Assembly: GCF_037892425.1 (NCBI RefSeq)
Contig: NZ_JBBKTT010000001.1
Coordinates: forward strand, 1,364,001 to 1,428,000
Reading direction: 5' to 3'
From: Lacibacter sp. H375
GTDB lineage: Bacteria > Bacteroidota > Bacteroidia > Chitinophagales > Chitinophagaceae
DNA length: 64,000 bases
The notes below the pieces were generated by a model, which saw only the letters and a program-made list of their open reading frames with translations, ran no database searches and was not told the origin of the DNA. The position numbers and the translations under genes were made by a program. This document shows, piece by piece, positions 7,382-63,822 of this stretch (positions within the stretch are counted from its first letter, which is position 1; each line of letters opens with the position of its first letter).

Positions 7382-8392
7382 ATGAAATTGATCTCCTACT
7401 TAAAAGATGAACACGAACAATTAGCGGCTGTACACAACGGACTTGTGTATGATATGGACACGCTACATCCTGATCTGCCAACAAGCATGAATATGTTTTT
7501 GCAATACTGGGATGAATATCTTGAACTTGCCCAAGCCAGTTTAAAAGCTGTGCAGGAAGGTCGTTTGATGCCGGGTAATGTTGTGCCTGTAGAACAAGTG
7601 CAATTGCTGGCACCAATTCCTATGCCTCCCAGTTGCAGGGATGGTTATGCGTTTCGTCAGCATGTTGAAGCTGCAAGAAGAAACCGTAAGGTGGATATGA
7701 TCGCTGAGTTCGATCAATACCCGATCTTTTATTTCACCAATCATCATAGCATACAAGGCCCCGGCGATGTGCGTTGCATGCCCGATCATTTTGAAAAACT
7801 CGACTTTGAATTGGAAGTTGCCATTGTTATCTGTAAGCACGGACGCAATATCCGTGCAGAAGAAGCCGATGAATACATTGGCGGTTTGATGATCATGAAC
7901 GATCTGAGTGCACGTCGTTTACAGATGGAAGAGATGCTGCTGAATCTTGGTCCGGCAAAAGGAAAAGATTTTTCTACAGCAATTGGCCCATGGTTGGTAA
8001 CGCTTGATGAGTTGCAGCAATACGTAGTACCTGCAAAAGAAAATCATGTTGGTCTTAACTGGAATTTGAATATGAAATGTTGGGTGAACGGCAAACAGGT
8101 GAGCGCAGGTAATGTTGCCGATATGGATTGGACCTTTGCCGAGATCATTGAACGTGCATCGTATGGTGTTGATCTTTATCCTGGTGATGTAATTGGCAGC
8201 GGCACTGTTGGTACAGGTTGTTTCTTGGAACTCAATGGCACAGGTAAGCTAAACGATCCTGGTTATAGTGAACAATGGTTGCAGGATGGTGATATCGTGG
8301 AAATGGAAATTGATGGATTAGGAAGGTTGAGTAATACGATGGTGAGAGATGAGGATGATTTTTCGATATTGGCTAAGAAGAAAAATATTTAA
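7382..8392 (+). CDS. Fumarylacetoacetate hydrolase family protein
   Basis: The 336-residue protein has the FAH C-terminal fold over residues 100-325, with metal-site acidic residues in the LDFELEVAIVI stretch and a typical GTVGTGC loop near 275-281. In the FAH family such enzymes cleave the carbon-carbon bond of fumarylacetoacetate to fumarate and acetoacetate in tyrosine breakdown, or hydrolyse or decarboxylate related diketo acids. The N-terminal MKLISYLKDEHEQLAAVHNGLVYDMDTLHPDLP is the usual lead-in domain. The ATG at 7382 agrees with the promoter box at 7340-7347. The next gene, a flavin reductase, follows after 68 bases that hold a repeat; the pair could form a short aromatic-degradation unit, but no hydroxyphenylpyruvate or homogentisate enzyme is present here. 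Confidence 0.88.
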   Translation: MKLISYLKDEHEQLAAVHNGLVYDMDTLHPDLPTSMNMFLQYWDEYLELAQASLKAVQEGRLMPGNVVPVEQVQLLAPIPMPPSCRDGYAFRQHVEAARRNRKVDMIAEFDQYPIFYFTNHHSIQGPGDVRCMPDHFEKLDFELEVAIVICKHGRNIRAEEADEYIGGLMIMNDLSARRLQMEEMLLNLGPAKGKDFSTAIGPWLVTLDELQQYVVPAKENHVGLNWNLNMKCWVNGKQVSAGNVADMDWTFAEIIERASYGVDLYPGDVIGSGTVGTGCFLELNGTGKLNDPGYSEQWLQDGDIVEMEIDGLGRLSNTMVRDEDDFSILAKKKNI

Positions 8393-8447
8393 CCACTGAG
8401 ACACAAAGATCACGGAGATTCTCTGCGTACTCTGCGAGCTCTGTGTG
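8393..8447. repeat. Imperfect palindromic intergenic repeat (ACTGAGACACAAAG type)
   Basis: CCACTGAGACACAAAGATCACGG is followed by TTCTCTGCGTACTCTGC and GAGCTCTGTGTG. The left half approximately mirrors the right (CACAAAG/CTCTGTG, CGGAGA/TCTCTGCG). A related unit (ACCATAGAGGCACAGAGAAG) occurs at 11350. This type recurs between genes in many Bacteroidota genomes, from memory. Confidence 0.55.
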
Positions 8448-8460
8448 AAAAAGATAAAAA

Positions 8461-9345
8461 ATGATTATTGATCTCTCACAACTCAACCCCATGCAAAAAC
8501 AACAATGGCTGCAACATGCCATTGCGCCACGCCCTGTTTGTTTTGCATCAACTATCGATAAAGAAGGAAATGTTAACCTGAGCCCCTTCAGTTTTTTCAA
8601 TTTGTTTTCATCGCATCCACCGATCGTTGTGTTTTCACCTGCACGCAGAGTGAGAGACAATACTACCAAACATACATTGCAGAATGTGCTGGAAGTTCCG
8701 GAGGTAGTGATCAATATTGTCGATTACGATATGGTGCAGCAGGTAAGTTTAGCCAGCTGCGAATTTCCAAAAGAGGTGAACGAATTTGTGAAAGCTGGAT
8801 TTACAGAAGAAGCGGCAACTATGGTAAAACCACCAATGGTAAAAGAAAGTAAAGTAAAGATGGAGTGCAAGGTGATTGAAGTAAAGCCCCTTGGTAACGA
8901 AGGTGGTGCTGGCAATCTGGTTATTTGCGAAGTGTTGCGCATGCACGTTGATGAAAGCATTCTTAATGCAGAAGGCACCATGATCGATCAGCGCAAGCTG
9001 CATCATATTGCACGCCTCGGCGGCGATTGGTACTGCAAAGTAGATGAGCACAGTTTGTTTCATGTTGCCAAACCAAATACACAACTCGGCATTGGTGTTG
9101 ATGCTTTGCCGGAGACGATCCGCAACAGCAATATTCTCACTGGCAACAATCTTGGCCAGTTAGCGAATGTGCATGAATACCCAATTGTTGATGCAACGTT
9201 TGAAGACGAGCGCTTGAAAAATATCATCCAGTATTTCTCCATCAACCCCGACGAAATGGATCAGGAACTACATAAATATGCGAAGGAATTGTTAGATGCA
9301 GGAAAAGTGAACGAAGCCTGGCAAATACTGCTGGCCGATAGTTAA
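8461..9345 (+). CDS. Flavin reductase family protein (flavoredoxin-like)
   Basis: The 294-residue protein has a split-barrel FMN-binding domain in residues 10-200, with the family hallmarks APRPVCFASTID (22-33), NLSPFSFFN and SSHPPIVVFSP (near 50-62). Such proteins either reduce flavin for a partner oxygenase or are flavoproteins on their own. The C-terminal 90 residues add a helical tail (DEMDQELHKYAKELLDAGKVNEAW) with no known role. Its place just behind the fumarylacetoacetate hydrolase gene suggests aromatic catabolism, supplying reduced flavin, but this is inference. It starts at ATG 8461, right after the intergenic repeat. No terminator is visible after it. Confidence 0.85.
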   Translation: MIIDLSQLNPMQKQQWLQHAIAPRPVCFASTIDKEGNVNLSPFSFFNLFSSHPPIVVFSPARRVRDNTTKHTLQNVLEVPEVVINIVDYDMVQQVSLASCEFPKEVNEFVKAGFTEEAATMVKPPMVKESKVKMECKVIEVKPLGNEGGAGNLVICEVLRMHVDESILNAEGTMIDQRKLHHIARLGGDWYCKVDEHSLFHVAKPNTQLGIGVDALPETIRNSNILTGNNLGQLANVHEYPIVDATFEDERLKNIIQYFSINPDEMDQELHKYAKELLDAGKVNEAWQILLADS

Positions 9346-10532: not shown

Positions 10533-11300
10533 ATGTTTCATCCTGATGGCACATGGATCAGTTATTTCCTGGTAATAGGCTTGCGATATGTAGTTATTGC
10601 CGGACTGGCTTTTTTGCTATGGTATGTGTTACTGAAGAAGAAGATTGCATTCAAAAAAATTCAACTACGCTTTCCCGCCAATAAAGATTACCAACGGGAA
10701 ATTTTCTTTTCACTTTGTACCATGTTCCTCTTTGCATTCGTGCCTTGGTTCTTTCTTGGCCATGCAGAAATAAGAAAAACAACCACGTTTTATAAAGACA
10801 TCAACCAATATAGCCAATTGTATTTCTGGCTGGCCTTTCCGTTAATGTTGCTCATACACGATACTTATTTCTATTGGATACACCGGTTGATGCATCATCC
10901 CAAACTGTTCCGCATTTTTCATCTCATTCATCATAAAAGCACCAACCCATCACCTTGGGCAGCTTTTGCTTTTCATCCCTTGGAAGCAGTTCTTGAAGTA
11001 AGTATTTTGATCGTACTCATCTACACAATCCCGGTTACCAAAGCTCACCTGTTCTTTTTCTTTTTGTTCCAGATGTTTTACAATGTGTATGGTCATTTGG
11101 GTTGGGAATTGTTTCCGAAAAATTTCCAACGTACATGGTTTGGCAAATGGATCAATACTTCTGTAACGCATAACCAGCACCATCAATACTTCACCGGTAA
11201 TTATGGTTTGTACTTTTTATTCTGGGACAGATTGATGGGAACACTACGAGACGATTATGATGCGAAATTTGATGAAGTGAAAGGCAGAGCTAAGAGTTAA
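10533..11300 (+). CDS. Sterol desaturase / fatty acid hydroxylase family protein
   Basis: The 255-residue integral membrane protein has the histidine boxes of the FA_hydroxylase superfamily: HDTYFYWIHRLMHH (near 109-122), HLIHH (near 130-134), a further His in AFAFHPLEA, and HNQHHQ near residue 215. These bind a di-iron centre used to hydroxylate or desaturate lipids. Four or so hydrophobic helices surround them. Bacterial members include beta-carotene hydroxylase-like and alkylglycerol monooxygenase-like enzymes; the substrate cannot be told here. The ATG is at 10533. It stands alone, converging on the DUF4197 gene with a two-way terminator in between. Confidence 0.88.
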   Translation: MFHPDGTWISYFLVIGLRYVVIAGLAFLLWYVLLKKKIAFKKIQLRFPANKDYQREIFFSLCTMFLFAFVPWFFLGHAEIRKTTTFYKDINQYSQLYFWLAFPLMLLIHDTYFYWIHRLMHHPKLFRIFHLIHHKSTNPSPWAAFAFHPLEAVLEVSILIVLIYTIPVTKAHLFFFFLFQMFYNVYGHLGWELFPKNFQRTWFGKWINTSVTHNQHHQYFTGNYGLYFLFWDRLMGTLRDDYDAKFDEVKGRAKS

Positions 11301-11322
11301 AAGGGGAGAAGAAGAAAAAGAG
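11290..11322 (+). repeat. CTAAGAG polypurine repeat, left arm
   Basis: CTAAGAGTTAAAAGGGGAG followed by AAGAAGAAAAAGAG straddles the stop codon of the hydroxylase gene. Its inverted partner (TTTTTTAAACTCTTAGC) is at 11487-11503. It belongs to the same family as 17891-17923, 21172-21662 and 45914-46044. Confidence 0.6.
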
Positions 11323-11349
11323 TTTTTGTTCGCTTTGCTTACAATGTTT

Positions 11350-11431
11350 ACCATAGAGGCACAGAGAAGCAGAGAAAACGAGTAGGTTAATTGAATATTC
11401 ACATCTGTGCTAATCCGTGTAATCAGTGAGA
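11350..11431. repeat. Intergenic repeat remnants (ACAGAGAAG and CTGTGCTAATCCGTGT types)
   Basis: ACCATAGAGGCACAGAGAAG (11350 onward) is related to the unit at 8393. ACATCTGTGCTAATCCGTGT and AATCAGTGAGA (11401-11431) is a second type that I remember from intergenic regions of other Bacteroidota. Both lie between the inverted CTAAGAG arms. Confidence 0.5.
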
Positions 11432-11474
11432 CATAAAAAATAAAGAGGGCTGCACTTAGTACAGCCCTCTTTTA
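11432..11474. terminator. Two-way terminator between convergent genes
   Basis: AAAGAGGGCTG (11442-11452) pairs perfectly with CAGCCCTCTTT (11462-11472). An A-rich stretch lies before and T-residues after, so it can end both the hydroxylase and the DUF4197 transcripts. Confidence 0.88.
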
Positions 11475-11486
11475 TCTCATTTCACA

Positions 11487-11503
11487 TTTTTTAAACTCTT
11501 AGC
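11487..11503 (-). repeat. CTAAGAG polypurine repeat, right arm
   Basis: Read on the minus strand, GCTAAGAGTTTAAAAAA abuts the stop codon of the DUF4197 gene, mirroring the arm at 11290. Confidence 0.5.
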
Positions 11504-17890: not shown

Positions 17891-17923
17891 CTCCTTTTCT
17901 CTTTTCCCTCTTTCAATCTCTTA
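17891..17923 (-). repeat. CTAAGAG polypurine repeat, single arm
   Basis: On the minus strand CTAAGAGATTGAAAGAGGGA followed by AAAGAGAAAAGGAG begins inside the stop codon region of the SDR gene. No inverted partner is seen nearby. Confidence 0.55.
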
Positions 17924-18742
17924 GTCCACAAATAAATCGGTAAACAACTTACCACCCGGGACCACACTATACTTACTCAGATCAGTAATTCCTTCTGCAG
18001 CAAACAGCTGCTCATCAACAAATAAGTTACCAGTACATTCATTCGATGGTTTGCTAAGAATAATATGTGCGGCATCAGCAAGTATATCAACTGTTCTGCT
18101 CATATTCGCTAATGCTTCGCCTCCCAACAAATTTCTTACAGCAGCTGTATCAATGGTTGTTCGTGGCCAAAGTGCATTGGCAGCAATACCATCCTCCTTT
18201 AATTCTTCGCTCCAGCCAAGTGTCATCATACTCATGTTGAACTTGGTGAGTGTGTACGCAATATGTCCGGCCAGCCATTTCGGTTTTAAATTAACGGGAG
18301 GCGATAAGGTGAGGATATGTGGATTCTTTCCCTTGCGTAAATGCGGAATACAGGCTTTCGTCATTAAAAATGTACCACGCACATTAATGCTGTGCATCAG
18401 ATCAAAACGTTTTGCTTCTGTTTGTTCTGTTGGCGTTAATGAAATAGCCGATGCATTGTTGATGAGTATATCAATGCCACCAAATGTCGCAACAGTTTTA
18501 TCAACTGCTGCCTGTATCTGATCTTCAAAACGAATATCTAATTGAATGGCCAATCCCTTGCCACCAGCTGCAGTCATTTCATCAGCCGCAGAAAAAATAG
18601 TACCACCCAGCTTGGGGTTTTCTTCCACACTTTTTGCTGCCACCACTACGTTGGCTCCTTCCTTCGCCAATTTCAATCCCATTGCTTTACCGATACCTCT
18701 CGATGCACCTGTAATAAAAACTGTTTTTCCGTTGAATGACAT
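17921..18742 (-). CDS. SDR family oxidoreductase, HSDL2-like
   Basis: The 273-residue protein is a short-chain dehydrogenase. It shows the nucleotide motif TGASRGIG (near 10-17), NNASA (near 97-101) and the catalytic Tyr-Lys pair in AYTLTKFN. The extended N-terminal loop (VVAAKSVEENPKLGGTIFSAADEMTAAGGKGLAIQLDIR) and the LSPPVNL strand are typical of the peroxisomal HSDL2-like branch, which is linked to lipid metabolism; the natural substrate is unknown. The ATG at 18742 starts the standard MSFNGKTVFITGASRG; the longer frame overlaps the divergent beta-helix gene and is rejected. Its stop codon merges with a CTAAGAG repeat. Confidence 0.9.
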   Translation of the reverse strand: MSFNGKTVFITGASRGIGKAMGLKLAKEGANVVVAAKSVEENPKLGGTIFSAADEMTAAGGKGLAIQLDIRFEDQIQAAVDKTVATFGGIDILINNASAISLTPTEQTEAKRFDLMHSINVRGTFLMTKACIPHLRKGKNPHILTLSPPVNLKPKWLAGHIAYTLTKFNMSMMTLGWSEELKEDGIAANALWPRTTIDTAAVRNLLGGEALANMSRTVDILADAAHIILSKPSNECTGNLFVDEQLFAAEGITDLSKYSVVPGGKLFTDLFVD

Positions 18743-18829: not shown

Positions 18830-20020
18830 ATGCTTTGCCAACTTCGTCTTACTTCAACATTTGTTTTATTAGTTTCGTTTGCAACTGTTCAATCGCAGGA
18901 TACAGAACAAAAGAAAATTCAGCGCCTGTTTGTTTCTGCAACTGACAACTCAATCATTGAATTACCGGAAGGAACGTTTCAACTCAATATGAGTTTGTGG
19001 CTCGATGGAAAGAAAAATGTACTCATTAAAGGAAAGGGAATGGATAAAACCATTCTCAACTTTACTAACCAGGTAAGTGGTGCGGAGGGAATAAAAGTCA
19101 CCAACGGAATAAATATTGTGTTGCAGGATCTTACTGTACAAGATACCAAAGGTGATGCGGTGAAAACGCAGAACGTTGATGGCATTACGTTTAAACGGGT
19201 GAAAGCAGAATGGACACGTGGGGCTAACAGCAAGAATGGCGCTTATGGTTTGTATCCTGTGCAATGCACCAATGTATTGATCGACGGGTGCGAAGCAAGA
19301 GGTGCAAGTGATGCGGGGATTTATGTGGGTCAAAGCAGTTACATTATTGTAAAAAATTCAAAGGCCATCGAAAATGTTGCTGGTATTGAAATTGAAAATT
19401 CGTTGTATGCTGATGTATATGATAATGAAGCAACCAATAACACCGGTGGAATTTTAATTTTCGATCTGCCTGATCTTGTGCAGAAGAAAGGTGGCTTCAT
19501 CAGGGTGTATAAAAACAATGTGCATCATAACAATCATATCAACTTTGCACCAAAAGGAAATATTGTGGGCAAAGTGCCACAGGGAACAGGTGTAATGATA
19601 CTCGCCACCAACCATGTAGATGTGTTTGAAAATAAAATTGTCAATAACATTACAGTTGGCACCGCTGTGGTGAGTTATTATATTACCGAAAATCCAATTA
19701 AGGATTCATCATACTACCCTTTTCCTACACAGATCAATATTTATAATAACAGTTACGAACGTGAAGCAGTGAGAACAACAGGTAAGGGACGTATGGGGAA
19801 AATGTATCGATTCAAATTACGTTTCGGAAAAAATGTGCCGCATATACAATATGATGGAATTGTGGATGCAAAATCACCAGCAGAAATATGTATACGTAAC
19901 AACAGCAATCAGAGCTTTGCAAATCTTGATGCAGAGAATGGGTTTAAGCATATCAGCAGAGATGCATCGAAACATGATTGTACGCTGCAGCCGGTGCCGA
20001 AAACAGAATTGAAAAATTGA
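18830..20020 (+). CDS. Parallel beta-helix domain protein (TIGR03805 type)
   Basis: The 396-residue exported protein has a signal-like N-terminus (about 1-22, ending VQSQD) and then right-handed beta-helix turns: IELPEGTFQLNMSLWLDG, NVLIKGKGMDKTILNF, GITFKRVKAEW, NVLIDGCEARGASDAGIYVG, YADVYDNEATNNTGGILIF. From memory it fits the TIGR03805 family, whose members regularly occur next to a TIGR03806 (SO2930-type) diheme cytochrome; that partner is the next gene here. The function of the pair is unknown; beta-helix proteins often bind or cleave polysaccharide, but no catalytic residues can be assigned. The start is ATG 18830. The genes are 108 bases apart, with a palindromic repeat between them. 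Confidence 0.85.
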   Translation: MLCQLRLTSTFVLLVSFATVQSQDTEQKKIQRLFVSATDNSIIELPEGTFQLNMSLWLDGKKNVLIKGKGMDKTILNFTNQVSGAEGIKVTNGINIVLQDLTVQDTKGDAVKTQNVDGITFKRVKAEWTRGANSKNGAYGLYPVQCTNVLIDGCEARGASDAGIYVGQSSYIIVKNSKAIENVAGIEIENSLYADVYDNEATNNTGGILIFDLPDLVQKKGGFIRVYKNNVHHNNHINFAPKGNIVGKVPQGTGVMILATNHVDVFENKIVNNITVGTAVVSYYITENPIKDSSYYPFPTQINIYNNSYEREAVRTTGKGRMGKMYRFKLRFGKNVPHIQYDGIVDAKSPAEICIRNNSNQSFANLDAENGFKHISRDASKHDCTLQPVPKTELKN

Positions 20021-20030
20021 TGAATAATGC

Positions 20031-20105
20031 TGTCATCCCGACGAAGGAGGGATCTGTTCAACTGCAGTACAAAGCTCGGCAGATTTCTCCTTCGTCGAAA
20101 TGACA
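20031..20105. repeat. Palindromic intergenic repeat (TGTCATCCCGACGAAGGAG type)
   Basis: Arms of 26 bases, TGTCATCCCGACGAAGGAGG plus GATCTG (20031-20056) and its inverse (20080-20105), match at 22 of 26 positions around a 23-base loop. I remember this sequence as a widespread intergenic palindrome in Bacteroidota. There is no T-run after it. Confidence 0.75.
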
Positions 20106-20128
20106 ATTGACAATTATACATTCGAACC

Positions 20129-21175
20129 ATGAAGAAACTGATCGTTACAGTTGTTGTATTAGCCTTTATGCTTGTTGCTTTATCATTCAGCAACAAACAC
20201 AGCAATCCTTATTTTCAGTTTCATGAAAATCTCAGCGAATACAATTTCTTCAAAGGGAAACTAAAAGAATTACAGCCTGCCGATGGCATAATTCCTTATG
20301 ATCTTAATACGCCGCTGTTCAGCGATTATGCAGAGAAGGCAAGATTTATAAAAGTCCCAGCAGGTAAAAAGATCAATTATAATGCTGCATCCGTATTCGA
20401 AATGCCGTTGGGTACAGTGCTAATCAAAAACTTTTATTACTATAATGATGTGCGTAAGCCTGCTCTTGGCAAACGCATTATTGAAACACGTTTACTGGCG
20501 AACATGGAGGATGGTTGGCATACCTATCAATACATTTGGAACGAAACACAAACAGAAGCGGTGTTTGAACCCATTGGTGATGTAACCACTGTTGAATACA
20601 TTGATGCAGCAGGAAAGAAAATAAAAGCACGGTATGTCGTTCCCAGTCAACCGCAATGCAAAGGTTGTCATGGTCGTAAGGATACCATCATTCCGATTGG
20701 TATAGCTGCACGTCATCTTAATGGCGACTATGTTTATGCAAACGGGAAACAAAATCAATTGCAGTATTGGCAAAAAATTGGACTAATTGATCTGCCATCA
20801 ACATCTATTCCTGCCAATGCAAAGTGGAACGATGAGCAAAGCGGAACACTCAACGAGCGTGCAAGAGCGTATCTTGATATTAACTGTGGAAATTGTCATA
20901 ACCCCAATGGCCCGGCAAATACATCCGGGTTGTTCTTAGATATTCATACTACAAATTCAACTGCACTTGGCATCACCAAAACACCTGTGGCTGCAGGTAG
21001 AGGAAGTGGCAATCTGAAATATGCAATTGATCCCGGCAAGCCCAACCAATCATTTATGATTTTTCGAATGAACAGTATTGATCCTGGTATTGCGATGCCT
21101 GAACTTGGTCGCAACAGAATTCATAAAGAAGGGGTGGCGTTGATTTCGAAATGGATAAAGGAAATGAGGAACTAA
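20129..21175 (+). CDS. SO2930-type diheme c-type cytochrome
   Basis: The 348-residue protein has an N-terminal signal or anchor (MKKLIVTVVVLAFMLVALSF) and two haem c sites: Cys177-Cys180-His181 (CKGCH) and Cys253-Cys256-His257 (CGNCH). Between and around them are family-typical segments: IIPYDLNTPLFSDYAEKARF (near 54-73), FEMPLGTVLIKNFYY and MPELGRNRIHKEG. It fits TIGR03806, named after Shewanella SO2930, the constant partner of the beta-helix family encoded just upstream. Electron transfer in the periplasm is expected; donor and acceptor are unknown. Its stop codon lies within the left arm of the CTAAGAG repeat that frames the next gene. Confidence 0.9.
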   Translation: MKKLIVTVVVLAFMLVALSFSNKHSNPYFQFHENLSEYNFFKGKLKELQPADGIIPYDLNTPLFSDYAEKARFIKVPAGKKINYNAASVFEMPLGTVLIKNFYYYNDVRKPALGKRIIETRLLANMEDGWHTYQYIWNETQTEAVFEPIGDVTTVEYIDAAGKKIKARYVVPSQPQCKGCHGRKDTIIPIGIAARHLNGDYVYANGKQNQLQYWQKIGLIDLPSTSIPANAKWNDEQSGTLNERARAYLDINCGNCHNPNGPANTSGLFLDIHTTNSTALGITKTPVAAGRGSGNLKYAIDPGKPNQSFMIFRMNSIDPGIAMPELGRNRIHKEGVALISKWIKEMRN

Positions 21176-21206
21176 GAGTTTAAAGAGGGAAAAAAGGAAA
21201 GGAAAA
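21172..21206 (+). repeat. CTAAGAG polypurine repeat, left arm of the GxxExxY cassette
   Basis: CTAAGAGTTTAAAGAGGGAA followed by AAAAGGAAAGGAAAA. The inverted partner is at 21624-21662; together they enclose the GxxExxY gene. Confidence 0.7.
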
Positions 21207-21212
21207 CAATAT

Positions 21213-21608
21213 CTAGACTATTTCTTCACGGCCTTTATTGTTGAAGACACGGTGGATTCCATCTTTCATAAGGGGCACTTTGAAATTAAGAAGCAAACCA
21301 TGTTTCAGATTTGTCAGCACCAGATGTGTTTGTAATTGATTGAAGTAAACAGGAGGAAGTGGATTTACAGATTTTAATTCAACAATTAATTTATCTTCAA
21401 TTAACAGGTCAAGTTTATACGCATTCTTTAAATATAAATTCTCATATTCAACAGGCAATAACAGTTGACGCTCTACTTTTACGTTAGCTTGAATTAATTC
21501 ATAATAGAGAATTTCTTCATAAACTTTTTCAAAGCAACCGGGACCGATGCGTGTGTGCATTTTAATACATAGGTTAATCACGAGGTTAGTAAGATCATCG
21601 ATATGCAT
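21213..21608 (-). CDS. GxxExxY protein
   Basis: The 131-residue protein carries the name-giving motif Gly24-x-x-Glu27-x-x-Tyr30 (GCFEKVY) and a PD-(D/E)xK-like core: Asp67 (KLDLLI), then Glu77-x-Lys79 (VELKSV). The fold suggests a nuclease relative, but no activity is established that I know of. The gene occupies almost all the space between two inverted copies of a CTAAGAG polypurine repeat, one merged with the stop codon of the cytochrome gene, the other ending at the stop codon of the transporter gene. This makes it look like a small inserted cassette. The start is ATG 21608 (MHIDDLTNLV). Confidence 0.88.
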   Translation of the reverse strand: MHIDDLTNLVINLCIKMHTRIGPGCFEKVYEEILYYELIQANVKVERQLLLPVEYENLYLKNAYKLDLLIEDKLIVELKSVNPLPPVYFNQLQTHLVLTNLKHGLLLNFKVPLMKDGIHRVFNNKGREEIV

Positions 21609-21623
21609 AAAATAGAATTGGTG

Positions 21624-21662
21624 TTTCTCTTTCTTCTCTTTTCCCCCCCTTCAAACTCTTAG
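21624..21662 (-). repeat. CTAAGAG polypurine repeat, right arm of the GxxExxY cassette
   Basis: On the minus strand CTAAGAGTTTGAAGGGGGGG followed by AAAAGAGAAGAAAGAGAAA. It mirrors 21172-21206 and ends four bases before the transporter stop codon. Confidence 0.7.
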
Positions 21663-21665
21663 CTT

Positions 21666-22706
21666 CTAACTTCCATGCTCATGCGGATTTTCTACCGGAT
21701 TCATTGATCCAAATTCGTTTGTATAAATTTTAAACAACAGCATAAAATAACTGATGAGTAGTGGACCAAAAATGAAACCCCAGAAACCAAACAAACTTAA
21801 TCCCACAATAACACCTAATACCGTCACCAGCGGATGAACATCACCTAAACGTTTCATAAGTGTGACCCTTGCGAGGTAATCAACATTACCTGTTACAAGT
21901 AAACTGTAGATCAATAAGCCGATGCCTTGGCCGGTATTTCCTTGTGAAAACAGGAATACAACCAATGGTGCCCAAATCAACGTAGTTCCCACAATCGGGA
22001 AGAACGCAAACACACCGGTAATAAAACCCCACAGCACAAATTCATTGATGCCAAAGATCCAGTAACCAACGAGTGCAAAAATCCCTTGTATCAACGAGAT
22101 CAGGGGAATGCCGATAGCATTTGCTCTTACCACGCTGATGGTTTCTTTGGCAAGGATATCAATGTTCTCTTCATGCAAGGGTAAAAAATAATCGAACGAT
22201 CTTTCCATTTCTTTACCGTTGGTGAGCATAAAGAAATAAACAAACAACATCATCGCCAGGTTAGAAAGGATCATGGCTGTGCTGTTAAGAAACGCAGGAA
22301 AAAAATTAGCAACCCGCTTCTGTAGTTCAGCTACGTTCTCATCTGTAAATAATTCCTGACCAGTCCATTCTTTTATTTGGGCCGAAACAGATTTTAAACC
22401 CTGTACTACTTCATCTGAATGGCTGAATACTTCCGTAATTTTTGGGGATAATAAATTGATGATATAATAAACGGGCAAGCCAAACAGCACCAGGAAGCCG
22501 AGCATAAAAGCTGTTGCTGCTAAACCTTTGTTCCATTTTTTCTTAATGGTAAGATAGCGGTACCAGCCTCTGCTGAGAATATAAAGTGTAATAGCGCCAA
22601 GAAAACCCGGCAGAAAAATATAAAGCTCCTTTACAAGTAGTAAGCCAAGTGCAATTAAAACAACTAAGAGAATGATTTGCCGTAAACGGCTGCTGAATGA
22701 TGCCAT
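21666..22706 (-). CDS. AI-2E family transporter
   Basis: The 346-residue membrane protein has about eight helices and the family pattern: paired N-terminal helices (LVVLIALGLLLVKELYIFLPGFLGAITLYI), a long cytoplasmic or periplasmic helical domain (residues 75-150), then GIPLISLIQGIFALVGYWIFG (near 194-214) and the C-terminal PLVTVLGVIVGLSLFGFWGFIFGPLL. Family members export autoinducer-2 (TqsA), act as Na+/H+ antiporters or have unknown substrates; nothing here decides between these. It ends with a His-rich tail (NPHEHGS). The start is ATG 22706. A terminator separates it from the CHRD gene upstream. Confidence 0.88.
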   Translation of the reverse strand: MASFSSRLRQIILLVVLIALGLLLVKELYIFLPGFLGAITLYILSRGWYRYLTIKKKWNKGLAATAFMLGFLVLFGLPVYYIINLLSPKITEVFSHSDEVVQGLKSVSAQIKEWTGQELFTDENVAELQKRVANFFPAFLNSTAMILSNLAMMLFVYFFMLTNGKEMERSFDYFLPLHEENIDILAKETISVVRANAIGIPLISLIQGIFALVGYWIFGINEFVLWGFITGVFAFFPIVGTTLIWAPLVVFLFSQGNTGQGIGLLIYSLLVTGNVDYLARVTLMKRLGDVHPLVTVLGVIVGLSLFGFWGFIFGPLLISYFMLLFKIYTNEFGSMNPVENPHEHGS

Positions 22707-37728: not shown

Positions 37729-37791
37729 AGGGTTGCCAACCTTTCAACAATTCCTCTGCACCTGCGGGAATAAATCCAGGTTGGCAACCCT
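37729..37791. repeat. Palindromic REP-like element
   Basis: AGGGTTGCCAACCT (37729-37742) and AGGTTGGCAACCCT (37778-37791) are perfect 14-base inverted arms; each arm is itself nearly palindromic (GGTTGCCAACC). The 35-base middle holds CACCTGCGGG. It lies between the tatC promoter and the terminator of the metalloprotease gene. Confidence 0.7.
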
Positions 37792-37800
37792 GATACGACC

Positions 37801-37830
37801 ACAAAAAAAGCGGTCCACAAGGACCGCTTT
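37801..37830 (-). terminator. Terminator of the zinc metalloprotease gene
   Basis: AAAGCGGTCC and GGACCGCTTT form a perfect 10-bp stem with a 4-base loop; on the minus strand a T-run follows. Confidence 0.92.
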
Positions 37831-45913: not shown

Positions 45914-45951
45914 CTAAGAGAATGAAAGAGTGGAAGGAGGGAAAGAGGAAA
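45914..45951 (+). repeat. CTAAGAG polypurine repeat, left arm
   Basis: CTAAGAGAATGAAAGAGTGG followed by AAGGAGGGAAAGAGGAAA; inverted partner at 46009-46044, with 57 AT-rich bases between and no gene. Confidence 0.65.
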
Positions 45952-46008
45952 TGATAGGTTACGATATATGACAATTAGTATTAATAAAAAAGAGAACCAT
46001 TGGTACAC

Positions 46009-46044
46009 TTCTCTTTCAAGTCTTTTCTCTTCTTTAAACTCTTA
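46009..46044 (-). repeat. CTAAGAG polypurine repeat, right arm
   Basis: On the minus strand CTAAGAGTTTAAAGAAGAGA followed by AAAGACTTGAAAGAGAA, starting 3 bases after the Fur gene stop codon. Confidence 0.65.
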
Positions 46045-46046
46045 GT

Positions 46047-51910: not shown

Positions 51911-51943
51911 TTTATTAAGGTTTGAAAAAGTAGTTTAGTAAAC

Positions 51944-52522
51944 ATGAAACAGCTTTCAATTTTATTTCTTCTGTTTTTCTGTACTGATGTTTTTGCACAA
52001 ACACAGAACGATTATACTATTCGTCAGCTAAAGAACGGCGAATTCACCAACGATGAAACATATGTTTATGCTCTGCCGTTTGAACAAGGCAAGAAAGTTT
52101 ATTTGGTACAAGCTTATGATAGCAAACTAAGTCATAAAGGAGAGTTTGCTCTTGATTTTAAAGTGAAAGAAGGAACAACAATCTGTGCAGCAAGAGAAGG
52201 AACTGTCATTGCAGTAAGAAGTGACAGTGATAAAGGCGGATTAAATCCTGATAATTTATCAGATGGGAATTATATCAGTATTCAGCACGGCGATGGTTCA
52301 GTTGCACATTATTGGCACTTGCAGAAAAATGGAGTGAAGGTCAATGTCGGAGATACAGTTTCGAAAGGTCAGCAAATTGGCAACAGCGGTAATACAGGTT
52401 ATTCTGCTTTTGCGCATCTTCATTTTGAAGTCGTACAAAATGGGAAACAACAACCAACAAGATTTCAAACAAAAAAGGGAATAAAGTATTTAAGGCCATC
52501 AAGATTTTATAGAGCAAATTAG
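51944..52522 (+). CDS. M23 family metallopeptidase (LytM-like)
   Basis: The 192-residue exported protein has a signal peptide (MKQLSILFLLFFCTDVFA) and one M23 domain (about 60-175). Zinc ligands are His64 and Asp71 (SHKGEFALDF) and His160 (HLHFEV), with catalytic His122 or His125 (AHYWHLQ) and His158 nearby. M23 enzymes cleave peptide bridges in murein. It has no LysM or coiled-coil partner domain, so it is one of the small, soluble periplasmic forms. It starts at ATG 51944 and ends 7 bases from the convergent cupin gene, with no terminator between them. Confidence 0.93.
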   Translation: MKQLSILFLLFFCTDVFAQTQNDYTIRQLKNGEFTNDETYVYALPFEQGKKVYLVQAYDSKLSHKGEFALDFKVKEGTTICAAREGTVIAVRSDSDKGGLNPDNLSDGNYISIQHGDGSVAHYWHLQKNGVKVNVGDTVSKGQQIGNSGNTGYSAFAHLHFEVVQNGKQQPTRFQTKKGIKYLRPSRFYRAN

Positions 52523-52529
52523 TGTTACG

Positions 52530-61551: not shown

Positions 61552-62331
61552 ATGCTTAAACAAACCCTAATTGCTGCTACCAAGGCAGGCGCAGAACAAC
61601 TGACGCATTTTTTTCATGGTGATTTTATTGTTCATAACAAGGAAGGCGTGAACAATCTTGTAACGGAAGCTGATCATGCAGCGGAGAAAGCCATTTTTGA
61701 AGTCATAAAGAAAGAATTTCCTGATCATTATATTTTAAGTGAAGAAGCGGGAGAGATGGCACAGGATTCAAATTACAAATGGATCATCGACCCGATCGAT
61801 GGTACAGTGAATTTTGCAAATGGCATCCCTATATGCTGTGTAAGTATCGGTATTGAGAAAGATGGGAAGATGATAATGGGAGCTGTGTTCAATCCGCTCA
61901 TGAATGAATTCTTTTTTGCTGAACGTGGTGAAGGTGCATATTTGAATGATAAACCCATTCATGTGAGTGAACAGAGCGAATTGATCAAAGCATGTATGGT
62001 TACGGGTTTCCCCTATACTTATCTTGATATGCCGAACGGTCCATTGCAGGTGTTTGAACGTTTTATTCGCAAGGGTATTCCTGTTCGTCGCTTAGGTAGT
62101 GCCGCAATTGACCTGTGTTGGGTGGCTGCTGGTCGCTTTGATGGCTTTTATGAACACAAGTTAAATGCATGGGATAGCGCAGCTGGTTTTCTGTTGGTAG
62201 AAGAAGCAGGCGGTAAGGTTACCGATTTTAAAGGCGATCATTATTCACCTTATCAACCACATATTGTTGCAACCAACGGAAAAATTCATGATGATCTGGT
62301 GGAAGTGATTAATGACAGGAAGAAACTATAA
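61552..62331 (+). CDS. Inositol monophosphatase family protein
   Basis: The 259-residue protein has the Mg2+-dependent phosphatase motifs of the IMPase family: Glu-Glu in SEEAGE (near 63-68), IDPIDGTVNFANGIP (near 77-91) and WDSAAGFLLVEEAGG (near 206-220), with GSAAIDLCWVAAGRFDGFYE between. It may act as inositol-1-phosphatase, as fructose-1,6-bisphosphatase, or as SuhB in rRNA transcription; sequence alone does not decide. ATG 61552 is used because the -7 promoter box overlaps the TTG at 61546. No terminator is visible before the repeat-framed four-helix-bundle gene. Confidence 0.92.
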   Translation: MLKQTLIAATKAGAEQLTHFFHGDFIVHNKEGVNNLVTEADHAAEKAIFEVIKKEFPDHYILSEEAGEMAQDSNYKWIIDPIDGTVNFANGIPICCVSIGIEKDGKMIMGAVFNPLMNEFFFAERGEGAYLNDKPIHVSEQSELIKACMVTGFPYTYLDMPNGPLQVFERFIRKGIPVRRLGSAAIDLCWVAAGRFDGFYEHKLNAWDSAAGFLLVEEAGGKVTDFKGDHYSPYQPHIVATNGKIHDDLVEVINDRKKL

Positions 62332-62362
62332 CATGTACGATGTTCGTTGTACGATGTACATG
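62332..62362. repeat. Left flank of the four-helix-bundle cassette
   Basis: CATGTAC (62332-62338) and GTACATG (62356-62362) are inverted; GTACGATGT occurs twice in tandem (62335 and 62349). GTACGATGTAC at 62349-62359 is the exact inverse of 62752-62762 downstream of the gene. Confidence 0.65.
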
Positions 62363-62399
62363 GGCGTGTTATTTTTGAAACATCTTAATTTGCTGACAT

Positions 62400-62744
62400 A
62401 TGGATGCCGAAGAAATGAAAAGGCGAACAAAAATGTTTGCCATTAACGTTGCAAGACTAACACAAAAAATACCTGATAGCCCAATTAACAGGGCGTATAA
62501 AAACCAGATCATTCGTTCTTCAAGCTCAGTAGGTGCAAATTACCGGGCAGCAAGGAGAGCGAAATCGAAACCCGATTTTATTAATAAACTAAAAATAGTT
62601 GAAGAAGAATTGGATGAAAGCTTGTTCTTTTTAGAGTTATTGCAAGAGTTTAACAAAGATTTTGAAAAAGAAATAACACAGCACTTTCACGAAGGAGAAA
62701 CTTTATTAAAGATTATTGTTAGCTCGATTGTGTCGTCCCGTTGA
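62400..62744 (+). CDS. Four helix bundle protein (23S rRNA IVS / S23 family)
   Basis: The 114-residue protein fits the four-helix-bundle family first noticed in the intervening sequences of 23S rRNA genes: RRTKMFAINVARLTQKIPDSPINRAYKNQIIRSSSSVGANYRAARRAKSKPDFINKLKIVEEELDES. The strongly conserved SSSVGANYREA-like turn is near residues 41-51. The basic first half suggests RNA or DNA contact; relatives include the Avd accessory protein of diversity-generating retroelements, but no reverse transcriptase or rRNA gene is here. Inverted 11-base repeats flank the gene exactly, marking it as a small inserted cassette between the phosphatase gene and thiL. Confidence 0.88.
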   Translation: MDAEEMKRRTKMFAINVARLTQKIPDSPINRAYKNQIIRSSSSVGANYRAARRAKSKPDFINKLKIVEEELDESLFFLELLQEFNKDFEKEITQHFHEGETLLKIIVSSIVSSR

Positions 62745-62751
62745 GAGAGGC

Positions 62752-62774
62752 GTACATCGTACATCTAACATCAA
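62752..62774. repeat. Right flank of the four-helix-bundle cassette
   Basis: GTACATCGTACATCTAACATC follows the gene stop by 8 bases. Its first 11 bases mirror 62349-62359. Confidence 0.65.
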
Positions 62775-62787
62775 ACATTCTAAAATT

Positions 62788-63822
62788 ATGAGCGAAGAAC
62801 GTACAGAACTATCCTCCCTTGGTGAATTTGGTCTTATCGATCATCTCACAAAAAATATTGAGCATCAGAATGCATCAACAATTCTTGGCGTGGGAGATGA
62901 TGCAGCAGTGATCGATCATTTCGGAAAACAGACTGTTGTTACAACTGATCTGTTGATCGAGGGTGTGCATTTTGATCTGATGTATACACCACTTAAACAC
63001 CTTGGTTATAAAAGTGTGGTGGTAAATGTGAGTGATATTTATGCTATGAATGCAACACCAACACAGATCACTTTAAGCTTGGCTGTGAGCAATCGTTTCA
63101 GTCTTGAAGCGTTAGAAGAATTTTATGATGGTGTATATGTGGCTTGCGAAGAATATGGTGTTGATCTGGTTGGCGGCGATACCACTTCTACTACCAAAGG
63201 TTTTGTAATAAGTGTAACAGCTATTGGAGAGGTGGCGCCTGATAAATTTGTAAAACGGAGCACAGCAAAACCAAACGATCTGATATGTGTAACCGGTTAT
63301 CTTGGTGGCGCATATCTTGGCTTGTTATTACTTGAAAGGGAGAAGAAAATTTTTCTTGAAACAAAAGGAGTACAACCTGATCTGGAGAACAGGGATTATA
63401 TCGTTGGCCGATTACTGAAACCAGAAGCGAGAAAAGATATCATCGATTTTTTAGAGAAGGAGAAAATTGTCCCAACGGCAATGATGGATATCAGCGATGG
63501 ACTCAGCAGTGAAATATTACACATCTGCAAACAAAGCGAAGTGGGTGCATTGATCTACGAAGACAAGATACCTGTACATCCGGATGCAAAGGAGTTTGCG
63601 TATAAATTAGAATTGGATCCAACTGCTTGTGCATTGAGTGGAGGTGAAGATTATGAACTGGTCTTTACCATTGCACAAAGTGATTATGATAAGATAAAAG
63701 ATGTGAACGGCATCAGGATCGTAGGGCATATTACAACAGCTGCAGAAGGTGCTCACATCATAACAAGAGGTGGCAATAAGCATCAGCTGACAGCTCAGGG
63801 CTGGAATGCATTTGGTAAATAG
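62788..63822 (+). CDS. thiL: Thiamine-phosphate kinase
   Basis: The 344-residue enzyme phosphorylates thiamine monophosphate to the active cofactor thiamine diphosphate. AIR-synthase-like N-terminal motifs are GVGDDAAVIDH (near 33-43), TTDLLIEGVHFDL and SDIYAMNATPTQITLSLAV (near 86-104); VGGDTTSTTKGFVISVTAIG and the C-terminal ALSGGEDYELVFTI are typical of ThiL. ATG 62788 is used because the longer frame runs through the cassette repeat. The S41-type lipoprotein gene follows 4 bases after its stop, so the two are cotranscribed. No thiamine riboswitch is visible. Confidence 0.95.
   Translation: MSEERTELSSLGEFGLIDHLTKNIEHQNASTILGVGDDAAVIDHFGKQTVVTTDLLIEGVHFDLMYTPLKHLGYKSVVVNVSDIYAMNATPTQITLSLAVSNRFSLEALEEFYDGVYVACEEYGVDLVGGDTTSTTKGFVISVTAIGEVAPDKFVKRSTAKPNDLICVTGYLGGAYLGLLLLEREKKIFLETKGVQPDLENRDYIVGRLLKPEARKDIIDFLEKEKIVPTAMMDISDGLSSEILHICKQSEVGALIYEDKIPVHPDAKEFAYKLELDPTACALSGGEDYELVFTIAQSDYDKIKDVNGIRIVGHITTAAEGAHIITRGGNKHQLTAQGWNAFGK

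Follow-up and report, generated by a model that had tools for sequence, protein, structure and literature searches.

Taken together, a small GxxExxY gene and the two inverted repeat arms that enclose it suggest a single selfish, possibly mobile, unit that was previously unrecognised. The gene lies on the minus strand of a 64,000-nt stretch of Lacibacter sp. H375 DNA (the window), and the reading that we consider probable is that gene and arms form one compact intergenic cassette of a nuclease and its own repeats, which would resemble RAYT/REP systems while being made of unrelated parts. In RAYT/REP systems, the gene is located between two inverted copies of its own repeat, gene and repeat co-vary, gene-less copies are scattered through the genome and copy number is tied to the gene (PMC2817692). 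Our proposal draws on sequence evidence of several kinds, namely inverted arms, unit lengths, the pairing of arm word and protein subfamily, gene-less copies, a conserved active site and fold, and the turnover of the slots in which the units sit. Exchange of a whole unit, with empty sites, was found for a sister class of cassette that carries a four-helix-bundle protein (PF05635), not for the GxxExxY class.

Results

The preliminary description of this DNA placed the GxxExxY gene between inverted polypurine arms, which is confirmed here with the addition of the strand (minus), absent from that description. The locus consists of:

21172-21209, plus strand: left arm, the CTAAGAG polypurine word read inward, holding the stop codon of the cytochrome gene (21173-21175)
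21213-21608, minus strand: GxxExxY PD-(D/E)XK nuclease-like gene, 131 aa, with D67 and E77-x-K79 intact
21625-21662, minus strand: right arm, an inverted copy of the left arm's word, ending 3 nt short of the stop codon (21666-21668) of the AI-2E transporter gene

From 21172 the left arm reads CTAAGAGTTTAAAGAGGGAAAAAAGG..., and the right arm, followed from 21662 inward to 21625, reads CTAAGAGTTTGAAGGGGGGGAAAAGAG.... The diheme cytochrome gene (TIGR03806) ends in a TAA that falls within the CTAAGAG of the left arm, and the described relation of the arm ends to the stop codons of the neighbours holds on both sides. In an ungapped comparison the two arms are 74% complementary over 50 nt, and with gaps they score 25, compared with a mean of 12.1 and a maximum of 23 for dinucleotide shuffles. 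Each arm is 84-87% purine, as would be expected if purine-rich intergenic DNA merely looked inverted. This composition or chance explanation is refuted and has practically no probability left, given that 0 of 5,000 dinucleotide shuffles reach the observed score and that words of non-purine composition are arranged in the same way. Another inverted word, GTCATCCCGACGAAGGAGGGATCTG / GTCATTTCGACGAAGGAGAAATCTG, is located at 20006-20123, between the gene at 18830-20020 and the cytochrome gene, and encloses no gene.

The other two GxxExxY genes of this genome and all five of its PF05635 genes are also bounded by inverted words, each by its own. We surveyed 76 GxxExxY and 47 PF05635 loci from the genus and family, with near-duplicates removed, using as arm score the best inverted match between the 150 nt upstream and the 150 nt downstream of the gene. 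A score of at least 16 is reached by 68% of the GxxExxY loci, 79% of the PF05635 loci and 2.3% of 300 other genes of this genome, which were drawn from 400 kb of stretches plus the window; the highest-scoring of these 'control' genes is itself a PF05635 gene. By the same score test, arms are undetected at 32% of GxxExxY and 21% of PF05635 loci. The mean score is 19.0 for the true flank pairs and drops to 10.8 when upstream and downstream flanks are re-paired at random (sd 0.22, 2,000 permutations). The arm score is 19.8 versus 12.0 in an independent set of 76 GxxExxY loci of other phyla, spanning Bacteroidota, Ignavibacteria, Acidobacteria, Nostoc, Planctomycetes, Desulfobacteria, an archaeal bin and others, and 17.5 versus 10.7 for PF05635 loci across Bacteroidota. 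The outer arm ends coincide with the ends of neighbouring genes (median gap 0 to -1 nt), in line with the earlier suggestion that the repeats are placed at gene ends. The expectation that GxxExxY genes of relatives would be flanked by the same polypurine arms survives only in part, as inverted arms are frequent but the word varies by subfamily. One universal GxxExxY repeat is ruled out, and the polypurine word does not stand for the GxxExxY family as a whole because subfamilies differ in their words.

PF05635 arms consist of repeated 7-nt units (self-identity 0.51 at shift 7 and 0.48 at shift 14, background 0.30) with a median length of 31 nt, corresponding to four to five units, and the 7-nt periodicity is confirmed in the phylum-wide set (0.52 and 0.52). 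GxxExxY arms are built of 8- or 9-nt units (self-identity 0.38 and 0.33), with 0.34 and 0.34 in the wide set. Typical GxxExxY words are CACAGAGGCACAGAG, CACGCAAAGACGC, AACCGCAAGGTTCGCAAAG, TCTGAACCATGATTTG, GCCGGGAAGAAGGGAAGG and CTAAGAGTTTAAAGAGGG, and typical PF05635 words are TTCATAGTTCATAG, TTAGCCATTAGCC, GTGAGTAGTGAG, GTCGATAGTCGAC and TACGAAGTACGAG. The two arms within one locus are more alike than arms of same-word relatives (18.7 versus 11.4, sd 0.72), an excess that arises partly from choosing the best-matching stretch; this likeness points to the arms of one locus being copied in concert.

Inverted arms could also act in RNA, as an element of the 23S rRNA intervening-sequence kind: the transcribed arms would pair with each other, and RNase III would excise the unit from messages. 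The 23S intervening sequences, whose protein family is PF05635, have inverted repeats at their borders and are cleaved by RNase III (PMC4990558). However, the mismatches between arms have no G-U bias on either strand (165 versus 191; 64 versus 60), gene-less pairs fold no better than shuffles (DNA parameters) and Rfam gives no match within the window. The lack of a G-U bias and the unremarkable folding speak against selection for RNA or hairpin pairing, and we regard an RNA element as quite improbable.

Which word is found depends on the protein. Arm similarity grows with protein identity among pairs under 60% identity (103 loci; Mantel r 0.256, permutations sd 0.047, maximum 0.175), in a test that is independent of word typing. 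On the GxxExxY tree, which is a quick one of 127 columns only, the six word types, defined after the data were seen, need 12 changes versus a mean of 38.6 for shuffled labels (0 of 200 shuffles as low). Within PF05635, individual subfamilies show the pairing of word and protein, but the overall correlation below 60% identity is weak (r 0.09, permutation sd 0.07). One genome houses different subfamilies with different words, and therefore the sequence style of the host is not the cause. These results bear on the idea that the genes are passive cargo that entered pre-existing, harmless intergenic repeat pairs, with arms unrelated to the protein. Gene-less pairs of the same words do exist, and one slot holds different words in different species, both of which fit passive cargo, but unit length depends on the gene family and word type tracks the protein tree. 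The idea is hence already disfavoured, and we give it very little credence.

The product of the gene at 21213-21608 is a GxxExxY protein by both TIGR04256 (116.6 bits, cut-off 35) and PF13366 (111.3 bits, cut-off 22), and it contains the GxxExxY motif (G24, E27, Y30) as well as the PD-(D/E)XK residues (D67, E77, K79). The nuclease-like core of Asp67 and Glu77-x-Lys79 that had been pointed out earlier is conserved, with D67, E77, K79, G22, G24, E27, Y30, N108, F109 and R120 all invariant in an alignment across 64 relatives. A structure model built with 64 sequences has a pLDDT of 94.8, compared with 40 from the single sequence. The best solved fold match for the model is Cas4 SSO0001 (4ic1; Z 9.1, 101 residues at 3.8 Å), followed at Z 5-7 by many PD-(D/E)XK enzymes, including exonucleases and Holliday-junction resolvases. 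In VIA-align, the Cas4 row alone exceeds the level of common arrangements, and no family is listed that excludes Cas4-, resolvase- or restriction-type relatives. A PDB sequence search with the protein returned chance S100 matches only, the PADLOC models gave no match at E 0.01 and no phage family matched either; in the open-access literature GxxExxY is mentioned incidentally, plus once in a virus genome paper. Conservation and model support GxxExxY as a predicted DNA nuclease, and the fold does not tell its substrate.

The window also contains the words without a gene:

8378-8469, no strand: inverted pair of the CACNRAG word (one of the other GxxExxY word types), without a gene
11290-11502, no strand: gene-less element with inverted CTAAGAG arms and, in the nearest relative, another interior
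17911-17924, minus strand: single CTAAGAG arm, overlapping the stop codon of a short-chain dehydrogenase gene and conserved in genome G003
45914-46045, no strand: gene-less element with inverted CTAAGAG arms, the same arms as in the GxxExxY cassette

These gene-less CTAAGAG copies again sit at gene ends. To count the word in whole genomes, a 14-nt pattern with 2 mismatches is too loose (it equals the control) and a 22-nt pattern is specific. The 22-nt version occurs in 11 copies in this genome versus 1 for the reversed control, in 13 copies in G001, 13 in G003, 11 in G009 and 22 in G008 (reversed control 0-1), and it is absent from four other genomes of the genus. The CTAAGAG word thus persists in G003 and G009, both of which have no GxxExxY gene at the window locus. 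At the family level, 348 copies of the CRCARAGRCRCARAG word are found in 61 genomes versus 29 for the reversed pattern, and their number correlates with the number of GxxExxY genes (Spearman rho 0.44, p 4e-4 across 61 genomes, the p value being optimistic because the genomes are related). At least two copies are present in 25 of the 40 genomes with a GxxExxY gene and in 4 of the 21 without. The GxxExxY gene is therefore associated with the repeats and not required for their persistence, the CRCARAG word being retained in those 4 of 21 gene-less genomes. A search of the open-access literature for six arm words gave no relevant match.

Two further loci show what the arrays can look like. In G009, the orthologue of the window element at 11290-11502 (locus L335, 1500-1960) has several word families nested as a mosaic between CTAAGAG arms in one intergenic region. 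In G008, the right arm of the CTAAGAG GxxExxY unit (locus L182) is amplified into a run of CTCTTAGTTCCTCTTAG-type copies in tandem, and the gene beside the unit is not that of G000.

At the window locus, the gene with CTAAGAG arms occupies the slot in G000, G001 and G008, although the right neighbour in G008 is another one. In G003, G009 and G004 the slot contains a short inverted pair of the ACCACAAAG type without a gene, and G011 and G012 lack any such element. Where the preliminary description envisaged a clean empty site, near relatives thus carry a different gene-less pair instead. Alignment of the whole window with G003, the nearest relative, leaves about a dozen gaps, five of which are arm-bounded slots (8383, 11323, 21166-21672, 45952 and 62360). 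On inspection, the gaps at 37735-37803 and 51912-52529 are not arm-bounded. Cassettes with other genes were considered for two gap segments of the nearest relative and ruled out, one arm only being present. Among the pairs of loci listed by identity, none with near-identical genes lies in different contexts, and no recent move was seen.

The sister type of cassette, also present in the window, consists of:

62324-62359, plus strand: left arm of the four-helix-bundle cassette, TGTACGATG, of the 7-nt type
62400-62744, plus strand: four-helix-bundle gene (TIGR02436 / PF05635)
62752-62787, minus strand: right arm of the four-helix-bundle cassette, inverted

We take the junction at 62331-62788 to be suhB-thiL, the gene names being presumptive, by similarity, and compared it in 12 genomes of the genus. 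Three PF05635 subfamilies, about 50-65% identical between groups, occupy this one site with three words: TACGATG in G000, TACGAAG in G001, G003, G004, G008 and G012, and TTAGATTTACGATT in G009, G011 and G013. The site is empty in 3 of the 12 genomes (G005, G006 and G010), which have a short spacer only, and between G000 and G003 the right-hand neighbour is 99% identical and the PF05635 units are different. As each subfamily comes with its own word and three sites at the same junction are empty, gene and arms switch together; on this comparison, what is exchanged at the orthologous site is the whole unit of PF05635 gene and arms. No target-site duplication was recognised by eye at the empty thiL site, where the junctions are strongly diverged. 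For the claim that gene and repeats move as one unit, the outcome is mixed, with the PF05635 exchange at an orthologous site in its favour and, on the other side, no recent move and a word that also occurs gene-less.

Exchange of this kind could also come about by homologous recombination between the neighbouring genes, with nothing mobile involved, if the protein bound its own word for expression control or in a chromosomal role and the scattered words were further sites. Such an operator or chromosome-structure role accounts for the pairing of word and subfamily, and for each gene being single-copy per genome with no recent copies. However, it leaves unexplained the inverted array that is also found downstream of the gene, the gene-less pairs with the same inverted two-arm layout at gene ends, and a turnover of the slots that is faster than that of all surroundings, and we consider it unlikely.

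Discussion

The cassette that we propose has a simple layout, in which an array of degenerate 8-9-nt units is followed by the nuclease gene and by the same array inverted. Each GxxExxY subfamily would bind its own word array at both ends, and the PD-(D/E)XK site would probably nick or resect DNA at that word, after which repair or replication would copy or swap whatever lies between the arms. Gene-less derivatives with that word at their borders, like the cassette itself, could in this way be copied or exchanged into slots at gene ends. The sister class would be organised in parallel, with the four-helix-bundle protein PF05635 and 7-nt units.

The closest known counterpart is the RAYT/REP system (PMC2817692, PMC3116915, PMC8266576). 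In both, a nuclease-type gene is framed by two inverted repeat copies (here at most, not all, loci), repeat and protein co-vary, and gene-less copies are scattered between genes and more numerous in genomes with the gene, which here is an association only. The parts differ, however. RAYT is an HUH tyrosine transposase related to IS200/IS605, whereas the protein described here belongs to PF13366, a PD-(D/E)XK nuclease family. REPs are GC-rich palindromes with a GTAG-type head, whereas the arms here are degenerate tandem arrays of 8-9-nt (or 7-nt) units, for example CTAAGAG... or CACAGAGGCACAGAG. Copy numbers here are in the tens, not hundreds, and a parallel class exists with a non-nuclease four-helix-bundle protein. 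With unrelated parts, the cassette would therefore work like a RAYT/REP system without being one. It likewise shares with MITEs and insertion sequences the short gene-less inverted pairs related to a gene-bearing form, but has no transposase gene, its arms are degenerate and periodic, and no target-site duplication was seen at the diverged junctions.

For the PF05635 class, the known relative is the 23S rRNA intervening sequence, an S23/IVP four-helix-bundle ORF between inverted repeats for which mobility is suspected and no mechanism is given (PMC4990558). The cassette at 62324-62787, not the GxxExxY one, shares with it the PF05635 ORF between inverted repeats and a scattered distribution. 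It differs in being located between protein genes and not in rRNA (no Rfam rRNA match in the window), and in having 7-nt arrays as arms, with no sign of selection for RNA pairing. Two reports describe direct heptanucleotide repeats, with no partner gene, between the genes of Beggiatoaceae, cyanobacteria, Bacteroidetes and Geobacter (PMC4679880, PMC2700814). These share with our arrays the short tandem 7-nt units between genes and the scatter across the same phyla, and the passages on them make no link to PF05635 units. PF05635-type units may have left behind the heptanucleotide repeats of Beggiatoaceae, cyanobacteria and Geobacter.

A wider proposal, which we put forward tentatively and at somewhat less than even chances, is that GxxExxY and PF05635 each define a class of minimal selfish cassette, that the two classes run in parallel and cross phyla, each with periodic arms specific to its protein (8-9 nt and 7 nt, respectively), and that the short-unit intergenic repeats of Bacteroidota, cyanobacteria and others are their gene-less offspring. 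As part of this proposal, a pentameric PF05635 ring may recognise an array of four to five 7-nt units, with one unit for each subunit. A PF05635 relative with a solved structure has five chains (2rld), and for another PF05635 protein an arrangement of five four-helix bundles is described (Lin et al. 2006, as cited in PMC10053308).

The cassettes give two common protein families whose function is unknown, GxxExxY and the 23S-IVP four-helix bundle, a partner and a role that can be tested. They may also be where short-unit intergenic repeats, on record for years but unexplained, come from. Given the pairing of word and subfamily, each protein is expected to recognise the word of its own subfamily. 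Should PD-(D/E)XK or four-helix-bundle proteins indeed spread repeats, they would represent a second, unrelated solution to the task performed by RAYT.
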